A stretch of 64,000 nt of DNA, taken from Taeniopygia guttata. Taxonomy: Eukaryota; Chordata; Aves; Passeriformes; Estrildidae. A program made the translations under genes and the position numbers. The DNA lies in NCBI RefSeq assembly GCF_048771995.1, contig NC_133063.1:15542063-15606062 (forward strand), read 5' to 3'. Positions 424 to 64,000 of this stretch are shown in pieces (the stretch's first letter is position 1; the number at the start of each line of letters is the position of its first letter). The notes beneath the pieces were generated by a model. That model was not told where the DNA came from, made no database searches, and worked only from the letters and a program-made list of their open reading frames with translations.

Positions 424-16574
<16,151 letters not shown>

Positions 16575-22470: not shown

Positions 22471-22475
22471 TACAG

Positions 22476-24836: not shown

Positions 24837-25425
24837 TCACGGAACACATCCTCCTTGAAGCTATGCTAAGGCACATGGAGAACAGGGAGGTGATTTGGGA
24901 CAGCCGAGGGTGAGTCTTGCCCGACCTACCCAGTGGCCTTCAATGATGGATCGAGTACATGAAGGGACAAGGGGAAGGCTACAGGTGTCGTTTATCTGGA
25001 CTACCGTAAAGCCTTTGACATGATCCCCAAAACATTCTCCCTAAATTTGAGAGAGATGGATTTGGTGCCTGGACTGTTGGATGGATAAGAAATTGCATGC
25101 ATGGTGCTTCCAGAGATCAACAGCTAAGAGTCAGGATGGACCTCAAAGTTCTGTTCTCTGAGCAATGTCTATTAATATCTTCATTAATCCTGTACACAGA
25201 GGTATCCTCAGCAGGTTTGCTGATGTCACCAAGCAGCAGCTGACACACCTGAAGAATGGAATGACTACTAAAGAGATGTGATGTGCTTGAGGAGTGGAAC
25301 CATAGCAGTCTCATGCGGTTTAAAAAGATCAAGTATGAGGTGCTGCACCTGAGTCAGGGTAGGTCTCAGGATGCATCCAGGCACAGTCTGGCCCCAGGAT
25401 GCAAAGAGGATGGGAGTTTCTGCCT
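24837..25425 (+). mobile_element. CR1 LINE coding fragment, plus orientation (unit 1, cut by array edge)
   Basis: Plus-strand decayed reverse-transcriptase reading includes HILLEAMLRHMENREVI and YLDYRKAFDMIPK, typical CR1 ORF2 text. Its 5' part is missing here but is present at the unit 1/2 junction (from about 36885), which shows that the array edge cuts the element. Confidence 0.9.
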
Positions 25426-25429
25426 GTCT

Positions 25430-25969
25430 GTGCCCTGTCAGCCTGTTGTGTAGGCCCCAAGGCAGCCAGGCTGTTACTACACCACTGTGTCCCTCGCTCT
25501 CTGTGCCCGGCACCTCCGGCCCTGCTGCCCTGCTCCCGGAGCCCTGTCCCCGGGCAGAGCCGTTCCCTGCCCGGGCACTGCCCCTTGGGGTGCTCCCTGC
25601 TGCGGCCTGGGCTGGCCCCAGAGCAGGGTCCCCCTGCGGGTGGCCCCGGGCGGGCCGCGTGTCCCCGGCCGGCTGTGCCCGGGCAGCTGCCTCAGCCGTG
25701 AGGGCTGCAGAGCTGCGGGAGCCCACGGCTCTCTGCCGGCCGCGCTGCAGAGCTCCCAGCTCCAGCTGGCAGGGCCTCAGCGCCCGCCCTGTGCCCTCCC
25801 GCAGGGACAGGCAGGCCAGGCCCTGCTTGCTGCCCTCATGGCGGCATTCCTGGCCCCTGCGCTCTCCAAGGGCTTCTCCAGGGGCACCCTCCTGCGGCCT
25901 TTGGGTCCCTGCACGGGAGCCGTGAGAGACCGGCACAGGGGCTGTTGGCAAGGGCCTGGAGGGACAGCG
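25430..25969. repeat. GC-rich block of the unit (unit 1)
   Basis: Very GC- and CpG-rich DNA inserted between the CR1 coding fragment and a CR1 3' UTR. It has long open frames on both strands (184 aa plus, 240 aa minus) rich in Pro, Gly, Ala and Arg; the minus frame runs into CR1 DNA, so it is probably chance. No protein family recognised. Copies at about 37602-38145, 49772-50311 and 61935-62478. Confidence 0.6.
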
Positions 25970-26236
25970 CCAGGGCCAGTGGCTTCCCACTGACAGAGGG
26001 CAGCCTTAGGCTGGAGCTGTGCAAGGACTTCTGCTCTCTGAGGCTGCTGAGCCTCTGGCCCACGCTGCCCACAGGAGCTGTGGCTGCCCCATCCCTGGCT
26101 GTGTTCCAGGCCAGCTTGGATGGGCCTTGGAGCAACCTGGCCTAGCGGAAGGTGTCCCTGCCCTTGGCAGCAGGGCTGGGACAAGACAATTTCTAAGCAC
26201 CCTTCCAAGCCAAGGCATTCTGGGATTCTGTGATCA
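25970..26236 (+). mobile_element. CR1 3' UTR end, plus orientation (unit 1)
   Basis: Contains the CR1 3' text ttggagcaacctggcctag and ends in the CR1 terminal octamer-like attctgggattctgtgat. Copies at about 38146-38412, 50312-50578 and 62479-62745. Confidence 0.85.
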
Positions 26237-26479
26237 GAGGGGCTGGGGGTGGCTTGGCTTAATTTCGGCTAGAGATAATTCACCACTCTGAGTTTGGTTG
26301 AGTTCAAGGAGTCATGCTCATGAGCCCAGATTCACAGCCCGTGACATTTACCACTACTATAGGCCTGGCTGACATCAATAAAGTCTTGCACACTCCAGAT
26401 TCTGCACAAATTGCCTTTTATTGACACCAGAGCAAAGGGTTTTCCAGTTTGCTACTTATAAATGCATTAACTCTAGAGC

Positions 26480-26990
26480 GGGAATATGGGTTGCAACAGA
26501 TAGCAAGACTGGATATGGCTTTACATCTGTATAAAATTTATATCACGCATGTAATCTATTATAGGCATATGATATAGAATATATATTACAGAGTTATATT
26601 CATATTTAATGTATACAGCAAGTATATATCATATGTATGCTATATATGTAATAAATATATCTATTTTATGAAAAACCTTCCAGACATAAAGGGACTATGA
26701 GCAACAATATGTGTCACAACAGACACTGACAATAAATATGTCTTCTACTGTTACTATTTAAACGAAATTACATATGCAACTCTTTAAAATCACTTTTTAT
26801 CCTGATGTAACTCCATATTTCATATTTTGATATTATTTATGTTACTATATTGTTTTGATTTATCGTATTTTACTAGTAGATATGATAATTCATAAACTTT
26901 ATAGTATATAACAGGCATACACAATAGATCTATCTATGAAACAAAAACCTTGATTCTGCTATAGATAAAATTTCATGTCAGCTCCAACAC
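26480..26990. repeat. AT-rich block of the unit (unit 1)
   Basis: About 500 bases dominated by TATA, ATAT and TTTAT runs with no coding potential and no recognised family. Copies at about 38656-39166, 50822-51332 and 62989-63499. It separates CR1 debris from the ITPRIPL1-like part. Confidence 0.6.
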
Positions 26991-27476
26991 ACGTGGTCTA
27001 ATGTTGACATAAAGGTGTCTCTTCCAGGGACATGGAGAGGCTCCATCCATTGACTCATCCCGGGTCACCAGTGCCAGTTTTTCCTCATATTCTTTTTTGC
27101 CCCATTTCTATTTTTCTTTTTCTGTCCCAGATTCCCACTTTTTTCATGCTTGAAATTTTAGCTCTCCTCAAAGGCTGGGAAGAACTGCATATTGCAGGTG
27201 GGGTTTGGAGACTTTAGCTCAGCATGTAGAGCAGGGCTCAATGACAGCTGGGTGCCTTTTTTGGAAAGTGAAATGATACAAAGAAGTAGAATAAACCCTC
27301 CCGTGGCAGTCCACTTTCTGAGGTGCCAGCAGAGGCTGTTGGACCTTCTCCAGAGCCTTTGCACGCATCCTCTTCTCCTTAGCACCAAATTTGTGCTAGG
27401 AGGTGGTTGTCTGCTGCCAGCTGCGAGCAGCACAAGCACTGCTCTGTGCACTTGGCCATGGCTCCTGCCCTTCCTT
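26991..27476. other. Non-coding stretch downstream of ITPRIPL1 fragment A (unit 1)
   Basis: No gene recognised. On the minus strand it follows the stop codon of fragment A and may be its old 3' flank. Confidence 0.4.
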
Positions 27477-27918
27477 CAGTCATCCTCTCCGAGAGCGATC
27501 CTTTTGAACGTCTTGTGCAGCACCCGGTAATCCCGCATTGCCTGGGTGTGGGCAGCCGGCTGCTGCGCCAGGTGATGGAAGAGACTGTATGTCCTACCCA
27601 TTCTTACATCTGGGGGTAAATTGATGTCCTGAGGAAACCTCCGGTTACCCACAATGAAGTGCTGGAGGCATTTTTGTCACAAACATATATGCAGGCTGTC
27701 CCTGATATCCGTCAGTCGCTCCCGGAGATGTCCCCTGCTCCACGATGACACGGGCATGGCAATGAGCAGGTGCATGACAATGGTCTTCATGGTGTAGGTG
27801 GAGAAGCTGAAGCCCAGAACAAGATGGGAGAAGAACTGAAGGCATTTGAGGTGCGAGCTGTCAGGGGGGGCCTGCCTGGCAATGTACTTGAAGAACTCAG
27901 CCTCTGCCACAGCGTAAT
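27477..27918 (-). pseudogene. ITPRIPL1-like C-terminal fragment A (unit 1)
   Basis: Minus-strand reading from YAVAEAEFFKYIARQAPPDS to a natural-looking end GEDD and TGA at 27477-27479. It aligns with residues about 375-515 of the 519-aa gene in this unit but is clearly diverged, so it is a different, older family member. One in-frame TGA lies after SLHICL. Its 5' side is cut off and joined directly to an LTR piece at about 27918. It has no N-terminal half and is not a working gene. Confidence 0.82.
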
Positions 27919-28085
27919 ACAACTAATCACCTTACTTTGTAGCCGCAACATCCAAGCCTGCACCACAGCCTGTTAACTACATATCCAATTATAACTTGTT
28001 ACTTGTATCAACAACAACCCTTTTTATACAGACATTGTTAACAACATTGCCCAAAAGTTTAAATTTGCTTTTTTTGTTCATAACA
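27918..28085 (-). mobile_element. Partial LTR between fragment A and the ITPRIPL1-like gene (unit 1)
   Basis: Matches the last ~170 plus-strand bases (LTR 5' end on the minus strand) of the LTR at 34147-34809, ending ttcataaca. It abuts fragment A on its left. Copies at 40094-40261 and 52260-52427. Confidence 0.8.
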
Positions 28086-28246
28086 ACACTGTTGCTGCTG
28101 CTGATGGCAGAGTGCTGCTGCGCAGAAGCTTTATATCGTCTCTTTCTGTATCCCACGTTCCTTCCCCTCTCTTTTCCTCGGGGACGTGAGGTAGTTTTCT
28201 GCTACTGCCTGTGAAGCCCACAAGCACATACGCATGATCACCTCTT

Positions 28247-29806
28247 TCATGAGCCAATGAGCAGCACACTTGCGAGCTGACGCCGAATATCCTGGTACTC
28301 GCTCATCGCCTGAGAGTGGGCAGCTGGACACCGTGCCAGCTGATGGAAGAGATTGGGTGGCTCAGCTGCTGCAATGTCCAGGGGCAAGCTAATCTCCTGA
28401 GGCAATCTCTTGTTGCCTATGATAAAGTGGTTAAGGCATTTCTCCTCCAGAGAGCAGCGCAGGTTCACACTGATATCTCGCATGCGCTGCAAGAAATACT
28501 TCCTGCGCCATTGTGACACGGGGAGACCGTTCAGGAGATGCATGACGATGGTCTTCAGGGTGTAGTTGGAAAAGCCTGTGCCCAGCAGAAGGCGGCAGAA
28601 AAGCTGCAGACATCTCAGGTGCAAACTGTCGGGGGGGGCCTTCCTGGCAATGTGCATGAAGAACTTCACCTCTGCCACAGCATAAGTCTCAGGCCATAGA
28701 GTGCTTGGGGTGCGTGTTTCCCTAGGCTGGCTGCTCACGAATATGTCAGAGCCACCTCTCCGCACCCCGAACAGGATCTCAATCCTGAAGCTTTCTCCGC
28801 CACTGATCGCCTTGAATTGGCAGGAGTGTGTGGAGGGCAGCGGGATTAAATTCCGGTTTTGTAACTGAGGCAAAGGTGGCATGATTGCTTTCACCAGTTG
28901 CTGGAACCAGCGGGCAGTTTTCTGCACGTCCAGGTAGGAGTCGGTGCACAGGGTGTCTAGGAGGCTGGGATCCTGATTGCTCCTCAGCTCCTCCTCGGGG
29001 TTGTGCAGGAAGCACAGCATGTTCTCACCCTGCTGCTGCCTCGTGCAGGTGCACTCCAGCTGCACGCGGACACGGAAGTTCCTCACGTGCCTCTGCCCCT
29101 CACCGTCCAGCTCCAGGTGGAAGCTGTGGCCTCGGGGAGGAGTCATGGGTATGAGCACACGGTACACGACATCCTGCTCCCAGGGACTCCAACCTTCAAA
29201 GGCACTGCCCACCCCGATGGGTCGGTGCAGGACTGGGTAGAAACTGTCAAACAAGACATGCCCAAAGTAAATTGTATAATCGTCCATCAGGTCAGTTATC
29301 CACTCACAGACTCTCTGCAGGTCCTCTACAGGCCCCTCTATGCGCTCCATTATATCTTGTCCAACACGATCGTCAACATTGTCTTCTTCTTCTTGGACTA
29401 CATTTGCAACATCATTGTCATTGTTGTTTTCTGCAAGTGCAGCCCCATTGGCAACATCATTTCCATCATTGTCATCTTCATTTCCAGCAACATTGCCAAC
29501 TTCCTCTTCATTTGCACCATGGTTTTCTTCTTCATTCTCCTCTCTCCTCAGGCTGCTTTTCCACCCAATAATCCACAGCACCAAGACCAGGGCCAGGAGC
29601 ACAGCAACAGCTAAGAGCTGCAAGTGTGGCATCTTCTTCTGGGAGAGCTGCTCCACCTGCTGCTCCAGCCGAAGCCTCTCCCATTCCAAGTACTTTGCAC
29701 GCGCTTCCATGCGCCAATGTGTTTCCTCATCCAAACCATCACCCACGGGCGGCGGGTACTGGATGAGACCTTGCAAGAGCGCGAACAGGAACACGACTGG
29801 ATCCAT
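28247..29806 (-). CDS. ITPRIPL1: ITPRIPL1-like protein, 519 aa (array unit 1)
   Basis: Member of the inositol 1,4,5-trisphosphate receptor-interacting protein-like family; molecular role poorly known. Start chosen at MDPVVFLFALLQGL (29806), in a strong Kozak context (accatgg) three bases after a splice acceptor; the open frame 45 codons further upstream is intron. Order: hydrophobic N-terminus 1-16 (signal-like), possible coiled coil 30-57 (ARAKYLEWERLRLEQQ), membrane helix about 62-82 (LLAVAVLLALVLVLWIIGW), acidic Asn/Asp/Glu-rich stretch 89-148, then the ITPRIP/Mab-21-like domain about 150-519. Family signatures include GSAFEGWSPWEQDVVY, ECTCTRQQQ, GSDIFVSSQ, YAVAEVKFFMHIARKAPPDS and GFSNYTLKTIVMHLL. 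Length is in the family range. The coding exon has no intron, as usual for the family. No breaks seen. Confidence 0.93.
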   Translation of the reverse strand: MDPVVFLFALLQGLIQYPPPVGDGLDEETHWRMEARAKYLEWERLRLEQQVEQLSQKKMPHLQLLAVAVLLALVLVLWIIGWKSSLRREENEEENHGANEEEVGNVAGNEDDNDGNDVANGAALAENNNDNDVANVVQEEEDNVDDRVGQDIMERIEGPVEDLQRVCEWITDLMDDYTIYFGHVLFDSFYPVLHRPIGVGSAFEGWSPWEQDVVYRVLIPMTPPRGHSFHLELDGEGQRHVRNFRVRVQLECTCTRQQQGENMLCFLHNPEEELRSNQDPSLLDTLCTDSYLDVQKTARWFQQLVKAIMPPLPQLQNRNLIPLPSTHSCQFKAISGGESFRIEILFGVRRGGSDIFVSSQPRETRTPSTLWPETYAVAEVKFFMHIARKAPPDSLHLRCLQLFCRLLLGTGFSNYTLKTIVMHLLNGLPVSQWRRKYFLQRMRDISVNLRCSLEEKCLNHFIIGNKRLPQEISLPLDIAAAEPPNLFHQLARCPAAHSQAMSEYQDIRRQLASVLLIGS

Positions 29807-29809
29807 GGT

Positions 29810-30113
29810 CTGCAGGAGGAGGGAGAGAAGGCCTTGAGTGGGGAAGGGAGGGCGGGAACTACTGCTTGCTGCAGGGAGGACAGGATGCTCAGGGTTCTGG
29901 GCGCAGGAAGGACAGGGCCCCAGACAGCTGGCAGGCAGCAAGGGCTATCCCAGTGCCCCTGGAGCTGCAGCAGCAGCAGCAGCCCTGTGGCCTGCCCAAG
30001 GCTCTCCCATGAGGGGCTGTCCCTGCCTGCAGGGGGAGAAGCCAGCCCCGGTTGCAGCGTTTCTGCCCCAGCCCTTGTCCCCAGCCCAGCCTCCCCGCCG
30101 TGTGTGTACTCAC
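29810..30113 (-). other. 5' UTR intron of the ITPRIPL1-like gene (unit 1)
   Basis: On the minus strand the donor is aagcg|gtgagtac at 30113 and the acceptor is cctcctgcag ending at 29810, 3 bases before the ATG. It contains a short CAG/CTG run near 29970 that differs in length between units. Copies at 41986-42292 and 54152-54455. Confidence 0.75.
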
Positions 30114-30240
30114 CGCTTGCCCAAGCAATAGAGGGCCAGCGTTAACCTGCTGGGGCCTTTTATTGCTTCCCCCTCTGTGACACGTCCCCTGTGATGTCAC
30201 AGGTGCCAGAGCGCATCACAGACCAGCCAACCCCACCCTT
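30114..30240 (-). promoter_or_regulatory. Promoter and 5' UTR exon of the ITPRIPL1-like gene (unit 1)
   Basis: Minus strand: a TATA-like caataaaag (30157-30165) lies about 45 bases upstream of the 5' splice site, placing the start site near 30130 and making a very short non-coding first exon. Further upstream is a perfect palindrome-like ctgtgacatcacag (30189-30202) around a CRE-like TGACATCA, next to gacgtgtcac. CRE-type sites are common in germ-cell promoters; expression here is inference. Confidence 0.6.
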
Positions 30241-30465
30241 TGTCCCCTCAGCCAACTCCTCCCTCAGGAACTCAGAAAGGCCCTGGTGCACTGCTTAAGG
30301 CTGCTTTTGAGGGAAGCTTCTTCAAATAACTCCCATTGTTCTCTCTTTTGGATTTATTTTCATCTGCCTTCCACTCACAATCTCATAGATATCCCTGTTG
30401 GAAGGCGCCCTTGAGGATCATTGAGTCTAAGCTTTGACTCCTCACGGGTTGAGCTACACTCAGAT

Positions 30466-30740
30466 CTCAGAATCAGAGTGGTTGAAAAAGTCCCTGAAGA
30501 TCCCACAGTGGGACCGCGAACCTAACACTGCCTACTCCTTTAAGAAATTGAGTCCTCAAATATTCCATGCCTTTTCAATCCCTTCAAGAGTGGGGACTCA
30601 GCTATTTCCCTAGGCAGCCACTTTCCACACTTGATAGTACTTTTGATGAAAGCAGTTTTTCTAAAATCCAATCTAAACATCTATATCTGATGCAACGTGA
30701 GGTCATTTTCCTTGTTCTTATTGCTTGTTTCCTTGTGTCA
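30466..30740 (-). mobile_element. Old CR1 3' part, minus orientation, split by an insertion (unit 1)
   Basis: Reversed CR1 3' UTR text, e.g. the aaaatccaatctaaacatct block. The CR1 match resumes at about 31390-31505 (ggctacaacctcccttcagg), so the ~650 bases between are an insertion. Copies at about 42645-42919 and 54808-55082. Confidence 0.75.
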
Positions 30741-30744
30741 CTGG

Positions 30745-31389
30745 ACAAGTGGGATGTTCAGACATGCCCATTGTTAGCCAAAGATTTTGTCAACAGTTCA
30801 TGTTTAAGAAATCACTCTGGCCCGCAAGTTCTAAAGATCAAATCTATTTATAAAATGAATTATTTATTAAATAAACAAGAGATAATAGATGAAAGATCTC
30901 GGAGTTACTTACTACTCAGTATAAAACTAAAAGGTACTAGACGTAGATTAAACCATAACAAACAATGTACAACATGAAGGTATCTATAGGAAAGCTTGTC
31001 AAAGAAACAGGAGTCAAATCTTACACACCACAGTGATGATGATGATAATTATTTGGATGTCTTTCACTTAACCTCCTCAGCAGTAATTGCAAAACAAGTG
31101 TCCTTGTCCACAAGAGAAACACCACACATTTCCAGAGAAATGTATAGAAAATTTCTGCTTTGTGAAAGTTTGGTATGGCTTTTTAGAGTTATAAAGTGAG
31201 GTGCCTGTCAGTGAGAAATCCAGCTTGTCTTTCCAGCTCTCACTTTAACAGTAAGATGTTTCTTGGCAGCTGGGAGATGCCAGCCCGCTGTTAGCCCCAC
31301 AGTGGCAAAAGAATTCACTGCAAGACTGTTATTCCTGTTTGAATTACCTGTCCAGGTAACAAACCACAGATCAGCTCTTGAGCAGAATG
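30745..31389. repeat. Unidentified insertion inside a CR1 (unit 1)
   Basis: Sequence of unknown family lying between two halves of one CR1. A plus-strand open frame over its left part (30567-30977) begins in CR1 DNA and is probably chance. Copies at about 42924-43568 and 55087-55731. Confidence 0.45.
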
Positions 31390-31505
31390 AGATGCCCTGC
31401 CACACCTGGGAGAAGAAATCAATCCCCACCCGGCTACAACCTCCCTTCAGGGAGCTGTAGGGAACTGTAAGGTCCCTCTGAGGCGCTTTTTCTCTCTGCT
31501 AAACA
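31390..31505 (-). mobile_element. Second half of the split CR1 (unit 1)
   Basis: Continues the CR1 from 30740 after the insertion. Copies at about 43569-43684 and 55732-55847. Confidence 0.7.
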
Positions 31506-31527
31506 CCCCCACTATTGCAGCGGGCAG

Positions 31528-31989
31528 TGTTCTGAGTGCCATGACCTTTCTGAGGAAGCCTCACAAAACACCTCGCCGTCTGTGCTCACACCGGGTGATT
31601 TCAGCTCTTTTATGATCCAGGCGACGCAGAAGAAGAGACGGGGTCTTTGTGGGGACTTCCAAGGTGAGCCTTTATTGAGCTTCTTCCTTGAGATGGTCCA
31701 GGGACAAAGAGCCACTCAGGCTGGGAAAGCAGGGATTTACACAGGGATCTTGAGGGGCGGGACAGAACACTAGGGCCAACGGGATGAGGGCACAGGGGTG
31801 GAGTGAGAGGGAAGGGCCAATGGGATACATTAAATCTGCATGTCACAACAAGGCATGCTGGGAGAAGCCTTTATCCTCAACCTAAGTGGGTATGGCTTGA
31901 GAGGTTTTCCCTCCAGGGGAGTGCTGTGGATTCTTTCCCTCTTGGCCCACCAGCCTCCACACCCCACTTCCCTCAGCCCTCTTTCATCA
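31528..31989 (-). mobile_element. Solo LTR, ERVK-like (unit 1)
   Basis: On the minus strand it begins TGATGAAAG and ends CAGAACA; an AATAAA signal (ctcaataaaggctcac) is followed by a U5 rich in C and T, as in avian ERVK-type LTRs. No coding region beside it. Copies at 43707-44168 and 55870-56331. Intact in outline as a solo LTR. Confidence 0.65.
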
Positions 31990-32104
31990 GACTTGTGCTC
32001 TTATAGAAGTGTTTCTAATAAAAAGGACTAGCATTTGTGGACATCAATGCCCTTCAAACTACATGCTCAGGGGCCCTTCTTAATTAGTTCCTGAGCTTGC
32101 TCTC

Positions 32105-32864
32105 CTACAACCCTTGGGAGTAGCTCTGCGGACAGTTTTTTCCATAACACCTAAGATTTTTTTTACTCAAGCACTTCTTGATTACTGTGCCCAAGACAGC
32201 ATCAATCACCACTTCACCCACAAGAACATCTCTACAGACAAACTCCAGGTCTAGGAGGGCACTTTTCCTAGTTGGCTCCCACAGTACCCATGTCAAAAAG
32301 CTACTTTCAGTGTGTACTTCCAGAATTTTCTGGGCTTGTTCAGCTCTTCCCTGTGATGTCTCCATTTGCAGCTAAGAAGTTGAGGTGCACCATGAGTATG
32401 ACTTTGTGTGACTGATCAAGAGATTTCCTTTCATTCCTTAGAGCATTATCCACCAGTGTCATCATCCTGGCTCAGTGATCCCTTAGAGACTGAGTGAAGC
32501 TCACAGAGGGAATAGATTGTCTCACAAAAGGGATGGCAGACAGTGTCCAAGTGTGCTTTTACTCTAGAGGAAAGGTGTGGCAGCAATTCCCCCTGCTGAT
32601 TGAGCAGTGCCTTCTCCATGTCCTGCATGCTCGGGTCTGTGTCAGATTTTGCCCAGGCAGTGTCTAAGGATGGGTAGCTCCTCCATACAGACCCCAGTGA
32701 ACACAAGGAGGAATCTTAGCGATGCCTCTTGCACGGTCCCTGACCAGCTGCAGCTGCCAGCAAGAATTTCTGGGTCCATCTAAAATGGTCACCCTGGCTG
32801 TGACAGTGTTAGAGGAAAGGGGGATGAAAGCCATCTTCGTAGCCGCTGAAGTGTGACGACCCAT
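32105..32864 (-). pseudogene. Unrecognised coding-like block, broken (unit 1)
   Basis: Three minus-strand open frames lie in a row: 32664-32864 (starts MGRHTSAATKMAFIPLSS), 32446-32706 (includes DTDPSMQDMEKALLNQQGEL) and 32105-32365 (includes LEFVCRDVLVGEVVIDAVLG). Composition looks protein-like and the frames follow one another, which suggests one decayed gene or exon string. I do not recognise the family. A 9-base difference removes three residues near 32260 in units 2 and 3 without shifting the frame. Copies at 44284-45034 and 56447-57197. Confidence 0.4.
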
Positions 32865-33791
32865 GCTTAAGGGGAAGGAAGCGCTGAAGATTTGCGATCC
32901 AAATGAGTAACAAAAGTCAGGGGGTCCACAATCAGAAAACTTTATTACCTAACTACACACTGGGCTTGGAAATCAATATGTTAGTCCCCTGACATGAGCA
33001 CAAGGCAGTGGGTTGTGGATAAAGGGGTAGGGTTAAAGGGAAGAGAAGAAAAAGAGGGAGAGATGAATTAAAGAAAGAGAGAAAGAAAAAGACAAAGAAG
33101 AAAAGAGAGACAAAAAAAGAACACCCGTCCTGGTTCCAGTGTTGATCCAGTTAATGGAATGTCAATCCTGGCTGCAGTGCCAATCCTGGCAATAATCCTG
33201 AGTTCAGCATCAATCCAGCTGTGCTGGTCTGGTCTATGAGATGTCCAGGGTCCTGAGGGCACTTTCCAGGCTTGGGGGTTACCTTTTTATCGACAGGTTT
33301 CTCTGCCCTAAACACAGGTTTCCCACTTTCTATGTCAATTAATTACCATGTACAGTCTTTTCTTTCAGGCCTTCCTGGACATGGGGCAGAGGGCTTTGGT
33401 GCTTTTTGAGGGTCTTAATCCTACTCTATAGTCCACGCTCTCTTCTTGGCCTTATTCTTGTGCTTATGCTGTACTGTGCTGTGGCTCTTTCTCACTGAAA
33501 AGTGCTGCCCTATTTCCGCCTGGCCCCCCTTCTCCAGCCATATCTTGGTCTTTCTCACAGCATTTTAATACCAGCAGTCCTTGGCTATTACCAACAGTTC
33601 CTGGTTGGCTCCACTGCCATACAATTATCAATGTTAGAGACTCACTCATTGCTCCCTTATATTCTGAGAATCAAGAGCTCAAAAGGTCTCCCTTTGGACA
33701 CTTTACAGTTGCAACAGAGTGGGATTTAGTCATAGGAATGTTCCATCATTCAGGTCTTTTCTCTGTAACTTTGTTTGAAGGTTTGTCAACA
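32852..33791 (-). mobile_element. LTR-like fossil, minus orientation (unit 1)
   Basis: On the minus strand a TATA-like cgataaaaaggtaac (near 33285) is followed by a purine/pyrimidine-biased tract and an AATAAA-type signal (gtaataaagttttc) near 32945, ending GGTCGTCACA. Limits and family uncertain. Copies at about 45022-45961 and 57185-58124. Confidence 0.45.
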
Positions 33792-34146
33792 AGAATATTA
33801 TTCCACTTGGGTTCTTAGTCAAAAAAAGTCAGCAAAGAAAAATAAATCAGCAAAGAAAAATAATTTTCCAAGGCTGTTCATTAAAAAAAAAAGAAAAAAA
33901 ATTGCACTAGTTAGACACCTGTTAGTTCCTGGGAACAAAGAATGTTTCTGATACATTCAAAAGGAGCTTAATATAAATGGAGTTTGTCAAGGCTTAGGCC
34001 TAATGAGGGTTTCTCAGATTGTAGTGCAGCCAGGGGCAAGGGGAGTCCATCACCACAATCCGCCCTGCAATGGAAGTCAGCTTCTCTGGGCCTCCACACG
34101 GTAGTCATCTCTGGATGCTGTGCTGGGGAGACTGCCAAGACAACCC
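33792..34146. other. A-rich stretch, no recognised content (unit 1)
   Basis: Contains two direct copies of tcagcaaagaaaaataa (33830-33865) and A-runs. Nothing else recognised. Same in units 2 and 3. Confidence 0.4.
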
Positions 34147-34809
34147 TGTTATGGACAGGCTTACAACGAAAACTTCAAAGTAACAAAAAAAAGCAGGCCA
34201 GTTAATTACAAACAAGTAAGCCTGTTTATTACAGACAGAACAACTGGAAGCCAAAGCCTCCGACTAGTCCGGAGACTGTTTCAACAATTTAGTAATTGTA
34301 CACCTAGGGGCATTTCTAAGGATACCAGCTCCAAGCAAAGACCTGGGTGTCACACACCCCAGGCCTTTTAAAGTCTCTCTCTTCTTCCCTTACTGGGGCG
34401 CTCAGGATCCGTGCTGTGATCGGTTTCTTTTTCTGTTGCTGATTGGCCCATAAGCTGGTGCAATCATTTTGAGATTCTTGCTTCTTATTGGCTGGTCTCT
34501 CCTCCAGTCTTAATCCAAGCTGTGGCTGTGCTCTACGATGGTATACTTCTAGAAGCTTCTCTGCCCCCCCTCCACAAAGATTGGCATTTCCTCCCTGGTT
34601 CCAGTCCCCTTTCAGGTGTATACAACAGTATTGATCTCTAATACAACTAATCACCTTACTTTGTAGCCACAACATCCAAGCCTGCACCACACCCTGTTAA
34701 CTACTTATCCAATTATAACTTGTTACTTGTATCAACAACAACCCTTTTTATACAGACATTGTTAACAACATTGCCCAAAAGTTTAAATTTTTATTTTTTG
34801 TTCATAACA
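34147..34809 (-). mobile_element. Solo LTR, full length (unit 1)
   Basis: Plus-strand ends tgttatggacagg and gttcataaca form TG...CA inverted termini; on the minus strand CCAAT-like boxes, a TTTAAAAG box and an AATAAA-type signal lie in LTR order. Same family as 19219-19948 and identical in its right part to 27918-28085. It looks whole as a solo LTR. Confidence 0.78.
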
Positions 34810-34970
34810 ACACTGTAGCTGCTGCTGATGGCAGAGTGCTGCTGCGCAGAAGCTTTATATCTTCTCTTTCTGTATCCCACATTCCCCTCTCTTTTCCTCG
34901 GGGACGTGAGGTGGTTTTCTGCTACTGCCTGTGAAGCCCACAAGCACAGCTGTACGCATGATCACCTCTT

Positions 34971-46979: not shown

Positions 46980-47140
46980 ACACTGTAGCTGCTGCTGATG
47001 GCAGAGTGCTGCTGCGCAGAAGCTTTATATCTTCTCTTTCTGTATCCCACGTTCCCCTCTCTTTTCCTCGGGGACGTGAGGTGGTTTTCTGCTACTGCCT
47101 GTGAAGCCCACAAGCACAGCTGTACGCATGATCACCTCTT

Positions 47141-52588: not shown

Positions 52589-54148
52589 TCATGAGCCAAT
52601 GAGCAGCACACTTGCGAGCTGACGCCGAATATCCTGGTACTCGCTCATCGCCTGAGAGTGGGCAGCTGGACACCGTGCCAGCTGATGGAAGAGATTGGGT
52701 GGCTCAGCTGCTGCAATGTCCAGGGGCAAGCTAATCTCCTGAGGCAATCTCTTGTTGCCTATGATAAAGTGGTTAAGGCATTTCTCCTCCAGAGAGCAGC
52801 GCAGGTTCACACTGATATCTCGCATGCGCTGCAAGAAATACTTCCTGCGCCATTGTGACACGGGGAGACCGTTCAGGAGATGCATGACGATGGTCTTCAG
52901 GGTGTAGTTGGAAAAGCCTGTGCCCAGCAGAAGGCGGCAGAAAAGCTGCAGACATCTCAGGTGCAAACTGTCGGGGGGGGCCTTCCTGGCAATGTGCATG
53001 AAGAACTTCACCTCTGCCACAGCATAAGTCTCAGGCCATAGAGTGCTTGGGGTGCGTGTTTCCCTAGGCTGGCTGCTCACGAATATGTCAGAGCCACCTC
53101 TCCGCACCCCGAACAGGATCTCAATCCTGAAGCTTTCTCCGCCACTGATCGCCTTGAATTGGCAGGAGTGTGTGGAGGGCAGCGGGATTAAATTCCGGTT
53201 TTGTAACTGAGGCAAAGGTGGCATGATTGCTTTCACCAGTTGCTGGAACCAGCGGGCAGTTTTCTGCACGTCCAGGTAGGAGTCGGTGCACAGGGTGTCT
53301 AGGAGGCTGGGATCCTGATTGCTCCTCAGCTCCTCCTCGGGGTTGTGCAGGAAGCACAGCATGTTCTCACCCTGCTGCTGCCTCGTGCAGGTGCACTCCA
53401 GCTGCACGCGGACACGGAAGTTCCTCACGTGCCTCTGCCCCTCACCGTCCAGCTCCAGGTGGAAGCTGTGGCCTCGGGGAGGAGTCATGGGTATGAGCAC
53501 ACGGTACACGACATCCTGCTCCCAGGGACTCCACCCTTCAAAGGCACTGCCCACCCCGATGGGTCGGTGCAGGACTGGGTAGAAACTGTCAAACAAGACA
53601 TGCCCAAAGTAAATTGTATAATCGTCCATCAGGTCAGTTATCCACTCACAGACTCTCTGCAGGTCCTCTACAGGCCCCTCTATGCGCTCCATTATATCTT
53701 GTCCAACACGATCGTCAACATTGTCTTCTTCTTCTTGGACTACATTTGCAACATCATTGTCATTGTTGTTTTCTGCAAGTGCAGCCCCATTGGCAACATC
53801 ATTTCCATCATTGTCATCTTCATTTCCAGCAACATTGCCAACTTCCTCTTCATTTGCACCATGGTTTTCTTCTTCATTCTCCTCTCTCCTCAGGCTGCTT
53901 TTCCACCCAATAATCCACAGCACCAAGACCAGGGCCAGGAGCACAGCAACAGCTAAGAGCTGCAAGTGTGGCATCTTCTTCTGGGAGAGCTGCTCCACCT
54001 GCTGCTCCAGCCGAAGCCTCTCCCATTCCAAGTACTTTGCACGCGCTTCCATGTGCCAATGTGCTTCCTCATCCAAACCATCACCCACGGGCGGCGGGTA
54101 CTGGATGAGACCTTGCAAGAGCGCGAACAGGAACACGACTGGATCCAT
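52589..54148 (-). CDS. ITPRIPL1: ITPRIPL1-like protein, 519 aa (array unit 3)
   Basis: Same architecture and start logic as the unit 1 gene. It differs from unit 1 only near the N-terminus (DEEAHWHMEA instead of DEETHWRMEA). Intact. Confidence 0.93.
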   Translation of the reverse strand: MDPVVFLFALLQGLIQYPPPVGDGLDEEAHWHMEARAKYLEWERLRLEQQVEQLSQKKMPHLQLLAVAVLLALVLVLWIIGWKSSLRREENEEENHGANEEEVGNVAGNEDDNDGNDVANGAALAENNNDNDVANVVQEEEDNVDDRVGQDIMERIEGPVEDLQRVCEWITDLMDDYTIYFGHVLFDSFYPVLHRPIGVGSAFEGWSPWEQDVVYRVLIPMTPPRGHSFHLELDGEGQRHVRNFRVRVQLECTCTRQQQGENMLCFLHNPEEELRSNQDPSLLDTLCTDSYLDVQKTARWFQQLVKAIMPPLPQLQNRNLIPLPSTHSCQFKAISGGESFRIEILFGVRRGGSDIFVSSQPRETRTPSTLWPETYAVAEVKFFMHIARKAPPDSLHLRCLQLFCRLLLGTGFSNYTLKTIVMHLLNGLPVSQWRRKYFLQRMRDISVNLRCSLEEKCLNHFIIGNKRLPQEISLPLDIAAAEPPNLFHQLARCPAAHSQAMSEYQDIRRQLASVLLIGS

Positions 54149-54455
54149 GGTCTGCAGGAGGAGGGAGAGAAGGCCTTGAGTGGGGAAGGGAGGGCGGGAA
54201 CTACTGCTTGCTGCAGGGAGGACAGGATGCTCAGGGTTCTGGGCGCAGGAAGGACAGGGCCCCAGACAGCTGGCAGGCAGCAAGGGCTATCCCAGTGCCC
54301 CTGGAGCTGCAGCAGCAGCAGCAGCCCTGTGGCCTGCCCAAGGCTCTCCCATGAGGGGCTGTCCCTGCCTGCAGGGGGAGAAGCCAGCCCCGGTTGCAGC
54401 GTTTCTGCCCCAGCCCTTGTCCCCAGCCCAGCCTCCCCGCCGTGTGTGTACTCAC

Positions 54456-54582
54456 CGCTTGCCCAAGCAATAGAGGGCCAGCGTTAACCTGCTGGGGCCT
54501 TTTATTGCTTCCCCCTCTGTGACACGTCCCCTGTGATGTCACAGGTGCCAGAGCGCATCACAGACCAGCCAACCCCACCCTT
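54456..54582 (-). promoter_or_regulatory. Promoter and 5' UTR exon of the ITPRIPL1-like gene (unit 3)
   Basis: Same TATA-like box, CRE-like palindrome and 5' splice site as unit 1. Confidence 0.6.
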
Positions 54583-57500
54583 TGTCCCCTCAGCCAACTC
54601 CTCCCTCAGGAACTCAGAAAGGCCCTGGTGCACTGCTTAAGGCTGCTTTTGAGGGAAGCTTCTTCAAATAACTCCCATTGTTCTCTCTTTTGGATTTATT
54701 TTCATCTGCCTTCCACTCACAATCTCATAGATATCCCTGTTGGAAGGCGCCCTTGAGGATCATTGAGTCTAAGCTTTGACTCCTCACGGGTTGAGCTACA
54801 CTCAGATCTCAGAATCAGAGTGGTTGAAAAAGTCCCTGAAGATCCCACAGTGGGACCGCGAACCTAACACTGCCTACTCCTTTAAGAAATTGAGTCCTCA
54901 AATATTCCATGCCTTTTCAATCCCTTCAAGAGTGGGGACTCAGCTATTTCCCTAGGCAGCCACTTTCCACACTTGATAGTACTTTTGATGAAAGCAGTTT
55001 TTCTAAAATCCAATCTAAACATCTATATCTGATGCAACGTGAGGTCATTTTCCTTGTTCTTATTGCTTGTTTCCTTGTGTCACTGGACAAGTGGGATGTT
55101 CAGACATGCCCATTGTTAGCCAAAGATTTTGTCAACAGTTCATGTTTAAGAAATCACTCTGGCCCGCAAGTTCTAAAGATCAAATCTATTTATAAAATGA
55201 ATTATTTATTAAATAAACAAGAGATAATAGATGAAAGATCTCGGAGTTACTTACTACTCAGTATAAAACTAAAAGGTACTAGACGTAGATTAAACCATAA
55301 CAAACAATGTACAACATGAAGGTATCTATAGGAAAGCTTGTCAAAGAAACAGGAGTCAAATCTTACACACCACAGTGATGATGATGATAATTATTTGGAT
55401 GTCTTTCACTTAACCTCCTCAGCAGTAATTGCAAAACAAGTGTCCTTGTCCACAAGAGAAACACCACACATTTCCAGAGAAATGTATAGAAAATTTCTGC
55501 TTTGTGAAAGTTTGGTATGGCTTTTTAGAGTTATAAAGTGAGGTGCCTGTCAGTGAGAAATCCAGCTTGTCTTTCCAGCTCTCACTTTAACAGTAAGATG
55601 TTTCTTGGCAGCTGGGAGATGCCAGCCCGCTGTTAACCCCACAGTGGCAAAAGAATTCACTGCAAGACTGTTATTCCTGTTTGAATTACCTGTCCAGGTA
55701 ACAAACCACAGATCAGCTCTTGAGCAGAATGAGATGCCCTGCCACACCTGGGAGAAGAAATCAATCCCCACCCGGCTACAACCTCCCTTCAGGGAGCTGT
55801 AGGGAACTGTAAGGTCCCTCTGAGGCGCTTTTTCTCTCTGCTAAACACCCCCACTATTGCAGCGGGCAGTGTTCTGAGTGCCATGACCTTTCTGAAGAAG
55901 CCTCACAAAACACCTCGCCGTCTGTGCTCACACCGGGTGATTTCAGCTCTTTTATGATCCGGGCGACGCAGAAGAAGAGACGGGGTCTTTGTGGGGACTT
56001 CCAAGGTGAGCCTTTATTGAGCTTCTTCCTTGAGATGGTCCAGGGACAAAGAGCCACTCAGGCTGGGAAAGCAGGGATTTACACAGGGATCTTGAGGGGC
56101 GGGACAGAACACTAGGGCCAACGGGATGAGGGCACAGGGGTGGAGTGAGAGGGAAGGGCCAATGGGATACATTAAATCTGCATGTCACAACAAGGCATGC
56201 TGGGAGAAGCCTTTATCCTCAACCTAAGTGGGTATGGCTTGAGAGGTTTTCCCTCCAGGGGAGTGCTGTGGATTCTTTCCCTCTTGGCCCACCAGCCTCC
56301 ACACCCCACTTCCCTCAGCCCTCTTTCATCAGACTTGTGCTCTTATAGAAGTGTTTCTAATAAAAAGGACTAGCATTTGTGGACATCAATGCCCTTCAAA
56401 CTACATGCTCAGGGGCCCTTCTTAATTAGTTCCTGAGCTTGCTCTCCTACAACCCTTGGGAGTAGCTCTGCGGACAGTTTTTTCCATAACACCTAAGATT
56501 TTTTTTACTCAAGCACTTCTTGATTACTGTGCCCAAGACAGCATCAATCACCACTTCACCCACAAGAACATCTCTACAGACAAACTCCAGGTCTAGGAGG
56601 CTAGTTGGCTCCCACAGTACCCATGTCAAAAAGCTACTTTCAGTGTGTACTTCCAGAATTTTCTGGGCTTGTTCAGCTCTTCCCTGTGATGTCTCCATTT
56701 GCAGCTAAGAAGTTGAGGTGCACCATGAGTATGACTTTGTGTGACTGATCAAGAGATTTCCTTTCATTCCTTAGAGCATTATCCACCAGTGTCATCATCC
56801 TGGCTCAGTGATCCCTTAGAGACTGAGTGAAGCTCACAGAGGGAATAGATTGTCTCACAAAAGGGATGGCAGACAGTGTCCAAGTGTGCTTTTACTCTAG
56901 AGGAAAGGTGTGGCAGCAATTCCCCCTGCTGATTGAGCAGTGCCTTCTCCATGTCCTGCATGCTCGGGTCTGTGTCAGATTTTGCCCAGGCAGTGTCTAA
57001 GGATGGGTAGCTCCTCCATACAGACCCCAGTGAACACAAGGAGGAATCTTAGCGATGCCTCTTGCACGGTCCCTGACCAGCTGCAGCTGCCAGCAAGAAT
57101 TTCTGGGTCCATCTAAAATGGTCACCCTGGCTGTGACAGTGTTAGAGGAAAGGGGGATGAAAGCCATCTTCGTAGCCGCTGAAGTGTGACGACCCATGCT
57201 TAAGGGGAAGGAAGCGCTGAAGATTTGCGATCCAAATGAGTAACAAAAGTCAGGGGGTCCACAATCAGAAAACTTTATTACCTAACTACACACTGGGCTT
57301 GGAAATCAATATGTTAGTCCCCTGACATGAGCACAAGGCAGTGGGTTGTGGATAAAGGGGTAGGGTTAAAGGGAAGAGAAGAAAAAGAGGGAGAGATGAA
57401 TTAAAGAAAGAGAGAAAGAAAAAGACAAAGAAGAAAAGAGAGACAAAAAAAGAACACCCGTCCTGGTTCCAGTGTTGATCCAGTTAATGGAATGTCAATC

Positions 57501-58479
57501 CTGGCTGCAGTGCCAATCCTGGCAATAATCCTGAGTTCAGCATCAATCCAGCTGTGCTGGTCTGGTCTATGAGATGTCCAGGGTCCTGAGGGCACTTTCC
57601 AGGCTTGGGGGTTACCTTTTTATCGACAGGTTTCTCTGCCCTAAACACAGGTTTCCCACTTTCTATGTCAATTAATTACCATGTACAGTCTTTTCTTTCA
57701 GGCCTTCCTGGACATGGGGCAGAGGGCTTTGGTGCTTTTTGAGGGTCTTAATCCTACTCTATAGTCCACGCTCTCTTCTTGGCCTTATTCTTGTGCTTAT
57801 GCTGTACTGTGCTGTGGCTCTTTCTCACTGAAAAGTGCTGCCCTATTTCCGCCTGGCCCCCCTTCTCCAGCCATATCTTGGTCTTTCTCACAGCATTTTA
57901 ATACCAGCAGTCCTTGGCTATTACCAACAGTTCCTGGTTGGCTCCACTGCCATACAATTATCAATGTTAGAGACTCACTCATTGCTCCCTTATATTCTGA
58001 GAATCAAGAGCTCAAAAGGTCTCCCTTTGGACACTTTACAGTTGCAACAGAGTGGGATTTAGTCATAGGAATGTTCCATCATTCAGGTCTTTTCTCTGTA
58101 ACTTTGTTTGAAGGTTTGTCAACAAGAATATTATTCCACTTGGGTTCTTAGTCAAAAAAAGTCAGCAAAGAAAAATAAATCAGCAAAGAAAAATAATTTT
58201 CCAAGGCTGTTCATTAAAAAAAAAAGAAAAAAAATTGCACTAGTTAGACACCTGTTAGTTCCTGGGAACAAAGAATGTTTCTGATACATTCAAAAGGAGC
58301 TTAATATAAATGGAGTTTGTCAAGGCTTAGGCCTAATGAGGGTTTCTCAGATTGTAGTGCAGCCAGGGGCAAGGGGAGTCCATCACCACAATCCGCCCTG
58401 CAATGGAAGTCAGCTTCTCTGGGCCTCCACACGGTAGTCATCTCTGGATGCTGTGCTGGGGAGACTGCCAAGACAACCC

Positions 58480-59142
58480 TGTTATGGACAGGCTTACAAC
58501 GAAAACTTCAAAGTAACAAAAAAAAGCAGGCCAGTTAATTACAAACAAGTAAGCCTGTTTATTACAGACAGAACAACTGGAAGCCAAAGCCTCCGACTAG
58601 TCCGGAGACTGTTTCAACAATTTAGTAATTGTACACCTAGGGGCATTTCTAAGGATACCAGCTCCAAGCAAAGACCTGGGTGTCACACACCCCAGGCCTT
58701 TTAAAGTCTCTCTCTTCTTCCCTTACTGGGGCGCTCAGGATCCGTGCTGTGATCGGTTTCTTTTTCTGTTGCTGATTGGCCCATAAGCTGGTGCAATCAT
58801 TTTGAGATTCTTGCTTCTTATTGGCTGGTCTCTCCTCCAGTCTTAATCCAAGCTGTGGCTGTGCTCTACGATGGTATACTTCTAGAAGCTTCTCTGCCCC
58901 CCCTCCACAAAGATTGGCATTTCCTCCCTGGTTCCAGTCCCCTTTCAGGTGTATACAACAGTATTGATCTCTAATACAACTAATCACCTTACTTTGTAGC
59001 CACAACATCCAAGCCTGCACCACACCCTGTTAACTACTTATCCAATTATAACTTGTTACTTGTATCAACAACAACCCTTTTTATACAGACATTGTTAACA
59101 ACATTGCCCAAAAGTTTAAATTTTTATTTTTTGTTCATAACA
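58480..59142 (-). mobile_element. Solo LTR, full length (unit 3)
   Basis: Same as 34147-34809. Confidence 0.78.
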
Positions 59143-59303
59143 ACACTGTAGCTGCTGCTGATGGCAGAGTGCTGCTGCGCAGAAGCTTTATATCTTCTCT
59201 TTCTGTATCCCACGTTCCCCTCTCTTTTCCTCGGGGACGTGAGGTGGTTTTCTGCTACTGCCTGTGAAGCCCACAAGCACAGCTGTACGCATGATCACCT
59301 CTT

Positions 59304-59675
59304 TCATGAGCCAATGAGCAGCACACTTGCGAGCTGACGCCGAACATCCTGGTACTCGCTCATCGCCTGAGAGTGGGCAGCTGGACACCGTGCCAGCTGA
59401 TGGAAGAGATTGGGTGGCTCAGCTGCTGCAATGTCCAGGGGCAAGCTAATCTCCTGAGGCAATCTCTTGTTGCCTATGATAAAGTGGTTAAGGCATTTCT
59501 CCTCCAGAGAGCAGCGCAGGTTCACACTGATATCTCGCATGCGCTGCAAGAAATACCTCCTGCGCCATTGTGACACGGGGAGACTGTTCAGGAGGTGCAT
59601 GACGATGGTCTTCAGGGTGTAGGTGGAAAAGCCTGTGCCCAGCAGAAGGCGGCAGAAAAGCTGCAGACATCTCAG
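59304..59675 (-). pseudogene. ITPRIPL1-like C-terminal fragment B (unit 3)
   Basis: Same as 34971-35342; the last residue is Ser, as in the intact gene, instead of Cys. Confidence 0.85.
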
Positions 59676-61217
59676 GTTGACCAACATCTCTTGCAGCCTG
59701 CAACTCACCTCAGAGCAGTCAAAGAGTGTCAATAAGGACTGGAGGGATCACAGCGTTTTCTGGATGCAGCTCCAACCTTGGCAGAAATAAACCAACCTAC
59801 AACCCCCTGGCATGAGGCTTTCCCACTACCACTGGTCCCACCAAAGCCAGTTCTCCTGTTCCGAGGCTGAAGGTAGAAGTGAAGATGAGGAGAGTAAAGA
59901 GAAAAGCAGCTGCATAAGTTTGAGCACTAGAGTGAAGTTCCTTTTAATGACTTTATGAAATGACATTACCAAATACTCCTTGGGTTAAAAGTGGCTTCCC
60001 ATCGCAGTAGTATGGACTTGTTTAGGTTGAAAAAGATCTCTAAGATTGTAGAGAGTCCACCCACAAACCTGACATTGACAAGTCGACTTTGAAACCATGT
60101 CCCCAGGTGCCACATCCACACATTCCATAAGAGTCTCCAGACATGACAATATCATTAATTCCACGGGCAGCCATGACAACACTTAACAACCTTTTCAGAG
60201 GAGAAATTTGTCCTTAATACCCAATCTAAGCCCCCCCCGACAGAAGTTGAGGCCATTTCCTCTTGTCCTCTCCCTTGTTTCCTGGGAGCAGAGCCTGACC
60301 CCCACCTGGGGTGTGGCTCCACACTTCTGTCAGGGAGTTGTAGAGAACAAGAAAGCCCCCCTGAGCCTCCTCTTCTCCATTCTCAGCCCCTCCAGCTCCC
60401 TCAGCTGCTCCTCATCAGACTTAATCACCAGACCCTTTCCTGTGCTCAGGCCTTTGCCGCCACTGCTTTGGGACCTGTTGCAGCATTCCACACTCCACAC
60501 AGGCATGTTTTTATCTAACCCTTTCTTGCTCTGAGTGAAAGATTAACCCCTTTTCTTTGCAGTGACCTAACTTGCAGTCTGATTGCTGGCTCTGCTTGTT
60601 TACTTCCCTTTTGCATCACCCTCACAAAAGAAGAAGTCACCATACTAAAGAAACTGCTGCTAGAGGGGAGTAGAGAAAGTCAGCAAGTACTTTGTGAGCA
60701 ATTCCCATCCTTTATTCATCAGTGCGTATGATTTGGGCTAGCCAAACAGTTGGAAATGGTTGTTTCCCTCTTCCCCTGCTCAGGGTGCTTTAACAAGGGA
60801 AGACTGATGTTCTGGAGAGGGGAAGTGCGTCCGCAGCCATTCACTTGTTATGATTCTCCAGGGCCAGAGTGGAATACATAAACCTCTGGCTCCAGCTAGA
60901 GGCCACTCATGGCTGGGTTTCTAAGCAGAACAGATCTCTCTTTATGAAGTATCACTCTGCTCCGTTAAGGTGTGTGGTACAATAGGCCCAGTATCTCATA
61001 GGGAACAAGAAGACAAGAGAATAGAGAAATTGCTGCTTCCCGGGAAGTGGCTGAACATTGCTCGTCTATGAGAAGTAGAGAATAAATGTTTTTTCTCCTT
61101 TACTTCTGCATGCACAAACTCAATTTTTTCACTTCAATTAACAGCCTTATCTCAACTGACTACTTGTTTTCCATTTTATGTTCTCTCCCCTGTCACACTA
61201 GGAAAGGGAGTGTGATG

Positions 61218-61930
61218 GAGTGGCTTAGTGACCACCTGGCATTCAGCCAAGGTGAACCCACTACACCCATTCTAAAAAAGGGTAGAAAGGAATACTCTGG
61301 AAATGACCAACCCATCAGCCTCATGTCAGTGCCTCGGAAGATCACGGAACACATCCTCCTTGAAGCTATGCTAAGGCACATGGAGAACAGGGAGGTGATT
61401 TGGGACAGCCGAGGGTGAGTCTTGCCCGACCTACCCAATGGCCTTCAATGATGGATCGAGTACATGAAGGGACAAGGGGAAGGCTACAGGTGTCATTTAT
61501 CTGGACTACCGTAAAGCCTTTGACATGATCCCCAAAACATTCTCCCTAAATTTGAGAGAGATGGATTTGGTGCCTGGACTGTTGGATGGATAAGAAATTG
61601 CATGCATGGTGCTTCCAGAGATCAACAGCTAAGAGTCAGGATGGACCTCAAAGTTCTGTTCTCTGAGCAATGTCTATTAATATCTTCATTAATCCTGTAC
61701 ACAGAGGTATCCTCAGCAGGTTTGCTGATGTCACCAAGCAGCAGCTGACACACCTGAAGAATGGAATGACTACTAAAGAGATGTGATGTGCTTGAGGAGT
61801 GGAACCATAGCAGTCTCATGTGGTTTAAAAAGATCAAGTATGAGGTGCTGCACCTGAGTCAGGGTAGGTCTCAGGATGCATCCAGGCACAGTCTGGCCCC
61901 AGGATGCAAAGAGGATGGGAGTTTCTGCCT
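61218..61930 (+). mobile_element. CR1 LINE coding fragment spanning the unit 3/4 junction
   Basis: Same element as at 36885, near-identical. Confidence 0.88.
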
Positions 61931-64000
61931 GCCTGTCTGTGCCCTGTCAGCCTGTTGTGTAGGCCCCAAGGCAGCCAGGCTGTTACTACACCACTGTGTC
62001 CCTCGCTCTCTGTGCCCGGCACCTCCGGCCCTGCTGCCCTGCTCCCGGAGCCCTGTCCCCGGGCAGAGCCGTTCCCTGCCCGGGCACTGCCCCTTGGGGT
62101 GCTCCCTGCTGCGGCCTGGGCTGGCCCCAGAGCAGGGTCCCCCTGCGGGTGGCCCCGGGCGGGCCGCGTGTCCCCGGCCGGCTGTGCCCGGGCAGCTGCC
62201 TCAGCCGTGAGGGCTGCAGAGCTGCGGGAGCCCACGGCTCTCTGCCGGCCGCGCTGCAGAGCTCCCAGCTCCAGCTGGCAGGGCCTCAGCGCCCGCCCTG
62301 TGCCCTCCCGCAGGGACAGGCAGGCCAGGCCCTGCTTGCTGCCCTCATGGCGGCATTCCTGGCCCCTGCGCTCTCCAAGGGCTTCTCCAGGGGCACCCTC
62401 CTGCGGCCTTTGGGTCCCTGCACGGGAGCCGTGAGAGACCGGCACAGGGGCTGTTGGCAAGGGCCTGGAGGGACAGCGCCAGGGCCAGTGGCTTCCCACT
62501 GACAGAGGGCAGCCTTAGGCTGGAGCTGTGCAAGGACTTCTGCTCTCTGAGGCTGCTGAGCCTCTGGCCCACGCTGCCCACAGGAGCTGTGGCTGCCCCA
62601 TCCCTGGCTGTGTTCCAGGCCAGCTTGGATGGGCCTTGGAGCAACCTGGCCTAGCGGAAGGTGTCCCTGCCCTTGGCAGCAGGGCTGGGACAAGACAATT
62701 TCTAAGCACCCTTCCAAGCCAAGGCATTCTGGGATTCTGTGATCAGAGGGGCTGGGGGTGGCTTGGCTTAATTTCGGCTAGAGATAATTCACCACTCTGA
62801 GTTTGGTTGAGTTCAAGGAGTCATGCTCATGAGCCCAGATTCACAGCCCGTGACATTTACCACTACTATAGGCCTGGCTGACATCAATAAAGTCTTGCAC
62901 ACTCCAGATTCTGCACAAATTGCCTTTTATTGACACCAGAGCAAAGCGTTTTCCAGTTTGCTACTTATAAATGCATTAACTCTAGAGCGGGAATATGGGT
63001 TGCAACAGATAGCAAGACTGGATATGGCTTTACATCTGTATAAAATTTATATCACGCATGTAATCTATTATAGGCATATGATATAGAATATATATTACAG
63101 AGTTATATTCATATTTAATGTATACAGCAAGTATATATCATATGTATGCTATATATGTAATAAATATATCTATTTTATGAAAAACCTTCCAGACATAAAG
63201 GGACTATGAGCAACAATATGTGTCACAACAGACACTGGCAATAAATATGTGTTCTACTGTTACTATTTAAACGAAATTACATATGCAACTCTTTAAAATC
63301 ACTTTTTATCCTGATGTAACTCCATATTTCATATTTTGATATTATTTATGTTACTATATTGTTTTGATTTATCGTATTTTACTAGTAGATATGATAATTC
63401 ATAAACTTTATAGTATATAACAGGCATACACAATAGATCTATCTATGAAACAAAAACCTTGATTCTGCTATAGATAAAATTTCATGTCAGCTCCAACACA
63501 CGTGGTCTAATGTTGACATAAAGGTGTCTCTTCCAGGGACATGGAGAGGCTCCATCCATTGACTCATCCCGGGTCACCAGTGCCAGTTTTTCCTCATATT
63601 CTTTTTTGCCCCATTTCTATTTTTCTTTTTCTGTCCCAGATTCCCACTTTTTTCATGCTTGAAATTTTAGCTCTCCTCAAAGGCTGGGAAGAACTGCATA
63701 TTGCAGGTGGGGTTTGGAGACTTTAGCTCAGCATGTAGAGCAGGGCTCAATGACAGCTGGGTGCCTTTTTTGGAAAGTGAAATGATACAAAGAAGTAGAA
63801 TAAACCCTCCCGTGGCAGTCCACTTTCTGAGGTGCCAGCAGAGGCTGTTGGACCTTCTCCAGAGCCTTTGCACGCATCCTCTTCTCCTTAGCACCAAATT
63901 TGTGCTAGGAGGTGGTTGTCTGCTGCCAGCTGCGAGCAGCACAAGCACTGCTCTGTGCACTTGGCCATGGCTCCTGCCCTTCCTTCAGTCATCCTCTCCG
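61342..64000. repeat. Tandem array unit 4, partial, runs off the window
   Basis: Continues the array through CR1, GC-rich block, AT-rich block and the first bases of ITPRIPL1-like fragment A. The right end of the array is not in the window. Confidence 0.96.

Follow-up and report, generated by a model that had tools for sequence, protein, structure and literature searches.

The window analyzed here is a 64,000-nucleotide stretch of the zebra finch (Taeniopygia guttata) genome (contig NC_133063.1, positions 15,542,063 to 15,606,062, forward strand). It holds a real tandem amplicon that is most likely Z-linked and carries a recombinant ITPRIPL1-like gene. In the whole explanation that we favor, with a probability of about 0.72, recombination between an A-type and a B-type ITPRIPL1-like gene was followed by tandem amplification on the Z chromosome, and the product is a probable membrane protein. 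Ampliconic families on the sex chromosomes of mammals and birds consist of near-identical tandem copies around one open reading frame (ORF). The present array resembles them in this respect and, judged by synteny, in its sex-chromosome location. It thus appears to be a fresh example of sex chromosomes multiplying genes, here as near-identical 12-kb copies of a gene joined from two relatives. Each unit also seems to record the origin of the amplified gene, an A-type end having been swapped for a B-type end and the old end left behind. This record makes the order of events, fusion and then amplification, testable in other estrildid finches.

The tandem array

The array runs head to tail from position 24,837 to the end of the window and comprises three complete units and the start of a fourth:

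24837..37008, plus strand: tandem unit 1, 12,172 bp (landmark search, megablast, unit alignment)
37009..49178, plus strand: tandem unit 2, 12,170 bp (landmark search, megablast, unit alignment)
49179..61341, plus strand: tandem unit 3, 12,163 bp (landmark search, megablast, unit alignment)
61342..64000, plus strand: start of unit 4, truncated by the window end, with its gene lying beyond (megablast, unit alignment)

A sequence-only reading of this DNA had placed a landmark sequence at 24841, 37013, 49183, and 61346, and an exact search of the window recovers it at these four positions. No further site appears when up to three mismatches are allowed, against a mean of 0.01 matches in 100 shuffles. 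The common order and orientation of the units claimed in that reading are borne out by megablast self-comparison, in which 24837-51833 aligns unbroken with 37009-64000 at a shift of one unit, and 24837-39667 with 49179-64000 at a shift of two, both at 99.73% identity. With indels excluded, units 1 to 3 are 99.80–99.86% identical, above the 99% used to define ampliconic sequence, and they differ pairwise by 19, 24, and 17 single-nucleotide polymorphisms (SNPs) per 12,163 aligned bases. Three small indels also distinguish them: 4 bases of TGTC type near 25,423, 3 bases around 29,966 within a CAG/CTG run, and, at 32,259-32,267 of unit 1, a block of 9 bases. As had been proposed, these indels explain the three unit lengths exactly. 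Because each copy carries different SNPs, the units are not a single sequence pasted repeatedly.

The edge of the repeated unit lies within a reading frame, and a second element adjoins the array on its left:

36801..37082, plus strand: reverse-transcriptase reading frame, presumably CR1-like, unbroken through the junction of units 1 and 2
24029..24836, minus strand: long interspersed nuclear element (LINE) in opposite orientation, abutting the array's left edge, which we take to be CR1-like (RVT_1, E = 7.5e-08 for 24029-24442; reading frames)

The short stretch of the first frame gave no Pfam match, and a search of the window against Rfam at gathering scores returned none. Microhomology at the left edge was dropped as a candidate, since only one side of the breakpoint is known.

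Make-up of the amplified gene

A minus-strand ORF for 519 amino acids is intact in all three complete units:

28247..29806, minus strand: chimeric ITPRIPL1-like gene, 519 amino acids, unit 1 (ORF call, protein comparison)
40423..41982, minus strand: chimeric ITPRIPL1-like gene, 519 amino acids, unit 2 (identical in letters to database protein P0001)
52589..54148, minus strand: chimeric ITPRIPL1-like gene, 519 amino acids, unit 3 (ORF call)

Its product is homologous over its full length to annotated ITPRIPL1-like proteins (80% identity to P0002 over 99%, E = 1.9e-279), and its database cluster contains 19 member sequences. Two upstream features can be proposed from the sequence:

29810..30113, minus strand: putative 5′ intron, unit 1, with donor GTGAGT (30,108-30,113) and acceptor CTCCTGCAG 3 bases before the ATG (ACCATGG)
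30156..30203, minus strand: putative core promoter, identical in the three units

The putative intron is alike in the three units except for the CAG/CTG length variant. The promoter region includes AATAAAAGG at 30156-30164 and, at 30188-30203, a 16-base near-palindrome, CCTGTGACATCACAGG, containing TGACATCA; both are common to the three units, and we take AATAAAAGG to be TATA-like and TGACATCA to be CRE-like. The gene would thus appear to have a short noncoding exon and one coding exon. No AATAAA or ATTAAA poly(A) signal occurs on the minus strand of 27,001-28,247.

The two ends of the protein have different nearest relatives among the best 120 of 695 relatives found, which formed our protein comparison. 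Over residues 1-300, the window protein is 86–98% identical to zebra finch P0002, the A type, in five segments compared. Over residues 391-519, its identity to P0002 is just 41–73% (four segments), whereas it is 83–100% identical to Lonchura P0029, the B type, whose own N-terminus differs. Trees were built from 62 rows hand-picked among the 120 listed relatives. The first 300 positions (58 rows) place the window protein as sister to P0002 with support of 0.972, and the last 129 (62 rows) place it as sister to P0029 with support of 0.997. Six rows, partial or outlying, were excluded in advance from the topology tests, which used 56, with groups chosen once the tree had been seen. For the first part, a grouping of the window protein with P0029 was rejected (p-AU = 2.6e-05), as was one with P0002-P0004 for the last (p-AU = 0.0012).

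Besides the intact ORF, each unit contains two gene fragments. The pieces that bear on the join are, in unit 1:

27479..27916, minus strand: orphan A-type 3′ end, the last 146 codons with one internal stop, 95.9% identical to P0002
27915..28620, minus strand: B-type segment, C-terminal codons and 332 bases of 3′ flank, replacing the A-type end (self-comparison, protein comparison)
34639..35344, minus strand: second copy of the B-type segment, a fragment 96.3% identical to 27915-28620

Most simply, the orphan A-type end at 27,479-27,916 would be the gene's own displaced 3′ end. Since the protein's two ends have different sister proteins and this A-type end lies stranded downstream, we read the gene as a chimera of two ITPRIPL1-like types, a finding new in the present analysis. 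The sequence-only reading had assigned an intact ITPRIPL1-like gene to each unit, and the 519-amino-acid ORF agrees with this in all three complete units. Its account was nevertheless incomplete, since it saw neither the recombinant make-up of the gene nor the two further fragments in each unit.

The multicopy ITPRIPL1-like family of passerines shares with the window protein full-length homology, similar length, and many members per cluster. It differs in that no second protein with an A-type N-terminus and a B-type C-terminus occurs among the best 120 of 695 relatives. P0083, P0097, and P0117, from sparrow, finch, and blackbird, form a third ITPRIPL1-like type with clusters of 35, 21, and 53 members on contigs of 74-77 Mb, possibly another amplified family. 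Judged by typical sizes, such contigs may be the Z in other passerines, and those of about 63 Mb may be one autosome. Within the gene, the stretch at 28720-28905 on the minus strand (residues ~301-362) is far more altered than either end, and conserved tryptophans are changed; a donor that came from a decaying copy, or selection, are candidate readings. In the left flank, 19722-19911 is a 65-base tandem repeat in three copies. The element that holds it, 19216-19841, shares 78% identity with 34144-34766 of unit 1, so that its match there overlaps 3′ flanking sequence of the B-type fragment.

In a structure model, residues ~142-518 have a predicted cGAS/MiD51/Mab-21-like fold. This predicted fold is the likeness to MiD49/MiD51, cGAS, and MAB21L1, and the difference is sequence identity of just 11–17% in the structure matches listed. 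A PDB sequence search with the single protein gave no match at E 0.1; with the 62-row alignment the best match was a cGAS-like receptor (E = 0.00033). T2SSM, the sole Pfam family for the protein at E 0.01, was rejected as spurious, being below its own cut-off. Against Mab-21_C (PF20266), P0001 scores 14.2 bits, below the Pfam cut-off of 24.1. The annotated relative P0029 also falls under it (17.3 versus 24.1), so passing this cut-off is not universal among relatives. A hydrophobic stretch, judged by eye, spans residues ~62-82 within a predicted long helix.

Explanation and alternatives

The Z placement follows from the gene to the left of the array:

425..16571, plus strand: SLC30A5 (ZnT5), codons ~70 to 765, outside the array (match to human ZnT5; Cation_efflux in two exons)

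The human ZnT5 query was entered by hand. An identity as ZnT7 was set aside: the exon at 13111-13383 has its best PDB match in ZnT7, but human ZnT5 also matches the long N-terminal part. SLC30A5 is Z-linked in chicken and is treated as Z-linked in songbirds, and the array therefore most likely lies on the Z chromosome. A resemblance to sex-chromosome families, previously a guess, now has this synteny behind it.

We propose that the C-terminal part of a B-type paralogue, together with its 3′ flank, was transferred into an A-type ITPRIPL1-like gene. The transfer gave the chimeric ORF and cut off the former 3′ end of the A-type gene, which came to lie downstream. The anatomy of the unit displays the outcome; the route may have been non-allelic recombination or template switching. 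The segment with the gene, its putative promoter, and the CR1-like edge sequence was duplicated in tandem, as the array shows, and unequal exchange and gene conversion could have kept the units nearly identical, as their divergence of 0.14–0.20% suggests. At 5.0e-9 mutations per base per generation (from an excerpt of PMC12047795), that divergence puts the time when the copies last had a sequence in common at about 140,000-200,000 generations ago; under gene conversion, this dates homogenization rather than the origin of the array. The product would probably span the membrane once, and a moderate-confidence model gives it a cGAS/MiD51/Mab-21-like domain, likely without catalysis. Human ITPRIPL1 expression is reported to be highest in testis (excerpt of PMC11357910). 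By analogy, the finch product may be made chiefly there, in which case more copies would mean a higher dose of a membrane protein of the male germline.

Several observations weigh against this explanation. Synteny is the one basis of the Z placement, and SLC30A5 of a Darwin's finch also has a W copy (excerpt of PMC7692361). The structure model has a mean predicted local distance difference test score of 67.8. Positions 301-390 join P0029 with support of 0.905, though by a long branch, and an A-type origin for them survives the topology test (p-AU = 0.32). Mab-21_C matches 61 of the 62 aligned proteins at E 0.01, the window protein being the sole exception, and this protein is changed at 18 of the 210 positions that the other proteins conserve, the fifth highest count of the 62. 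Among units 1-3, SNP density is not lower in coding sequence (6 in 1,560 bases) than elsewhere (24 in 10,603; Fisher p = 0.27). The coding SNPs are five replacements and one silent change, against ~2.4 to 1 expected under neutrality with a fourfold weight on transitions. In these small numbers, copy-to-copy variation gives no support for constraint or purifying selection. With the Mab-21_C match missing, conserved positions changed, and no signal of purifying selection, the amplified gene could be in decay or have shifted in function.

These last data also favor a possible, clearly less probable, alternative: that unequal exchange amplified a repeat-rich Z segment and the gene copies hitchhike as passive by-products under little or no selection. 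The LINE sequence at the unit edge fits it as well. All three ORFs are intact and share the putative promoter and splice sites, which runs counter to it, although at 0.2% divergence this says little. An adaptive extension of the explanation we favor seems to us doubtful. Here, a new A/B chimera of an ITPRIPL1-like pseudo-nucleotidyltransferase would have been captured on the Z and, in parallel to the PAK3L amplicons, amplified by male germline selection, whether through sperm competition or through Z-W conflict, and changes at conserved residues ~309-333 would mark new function, not decay.

The PAK3L amplicons raise another alternative. Excerpts of a 2026 preprint (PMC13060935) describe ten PAK3L clusters on the zebra finch Z. 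Cluster 8, its second resolved tangle, consists of 35 units with a median length of 59 kb and carries PAK3L, ITPRIPL-like, and KCNK16-like genes. Our array might belong to it at another scale or form its edge, sharing with it the species, tandem units, ITPRIPL1-like genes, and, by synteny, the Z chromosome. In favor of this, P0002, another ITPRIPL1-like type, comes from a contig equal in length to that of the window protein. We think this unlikely: our units are 12.16-12.17 kb, the gene is apparently chimeric and lies beside SLC30A5, and a tblastn search of the 64-kb window with a manually entered PAK kinase domain turned up no PAK kinase (best E = 0.98; the search did not extend to KCNK16). 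As far as the window shows, the array is related to, but different from, cluster 8, and it appears to be a second, PAK3L-free amplicon type on the zebra finch Z. This raises the question of whether repeated amplification of testis genes is favored on the avian Z as it is on the mammalian X and Y. The preprint also qualifies the earlier statement that no description of the exact array was known. Among the matches listed from the open-licence literature, we found no description of a 12.17-kb unit, and to that extent the statement stands; amplified ITPRIPL1-like genes on the zebra finch Z are described there, in the excerpts of PMC13060935 and in no other match.

That the gene is instead an old third lineage with ancestral states kept at both ends is improbable: residues 301-390 are about equidistant from the A and B types, as such a lineage might be, but the ends group oppositely with strong support and the stranded A-type 3′ end lies directly downstream. 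Least credible of all is that an assembler duplicated one unit, since, for all the gaps and tangles that PAK3L arrays caused in the zebra finch Z assembly (excerpts of PMC13060935), the units have private SNPs and indels and the protein cluster has 19 member sequences, if not necessarily from one assembly.

Left flank of the array

Two decayed remains of CCNB1 with stops lie directly downstream of SLC30A5, both on the plus strand: 21565-21687 (human codons 142-182, 54% identity) and 22443-22664 (human codons 225-298, 49% identity). We take adjacency of SLC30A5 and CCNB1 to be the human gene order. A chicken study of the same region names SLC30A5, CENPH, MRPS36, and CDK7, and CCNB1 is absent from its main text. 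No paper came up in a literature search for CCNB1 loss in the zebra finch, and PMC11628666 and PMC4377847 name neither ITPRIP nor SLC30A5 in their main texts. Between SLC30A5 and the relic, a CpG island occupies 20501-21500 (GC fraction 0.64-0.73, observed/expected 0.65-0.89) and is possibly the old promoter of CCNB1.
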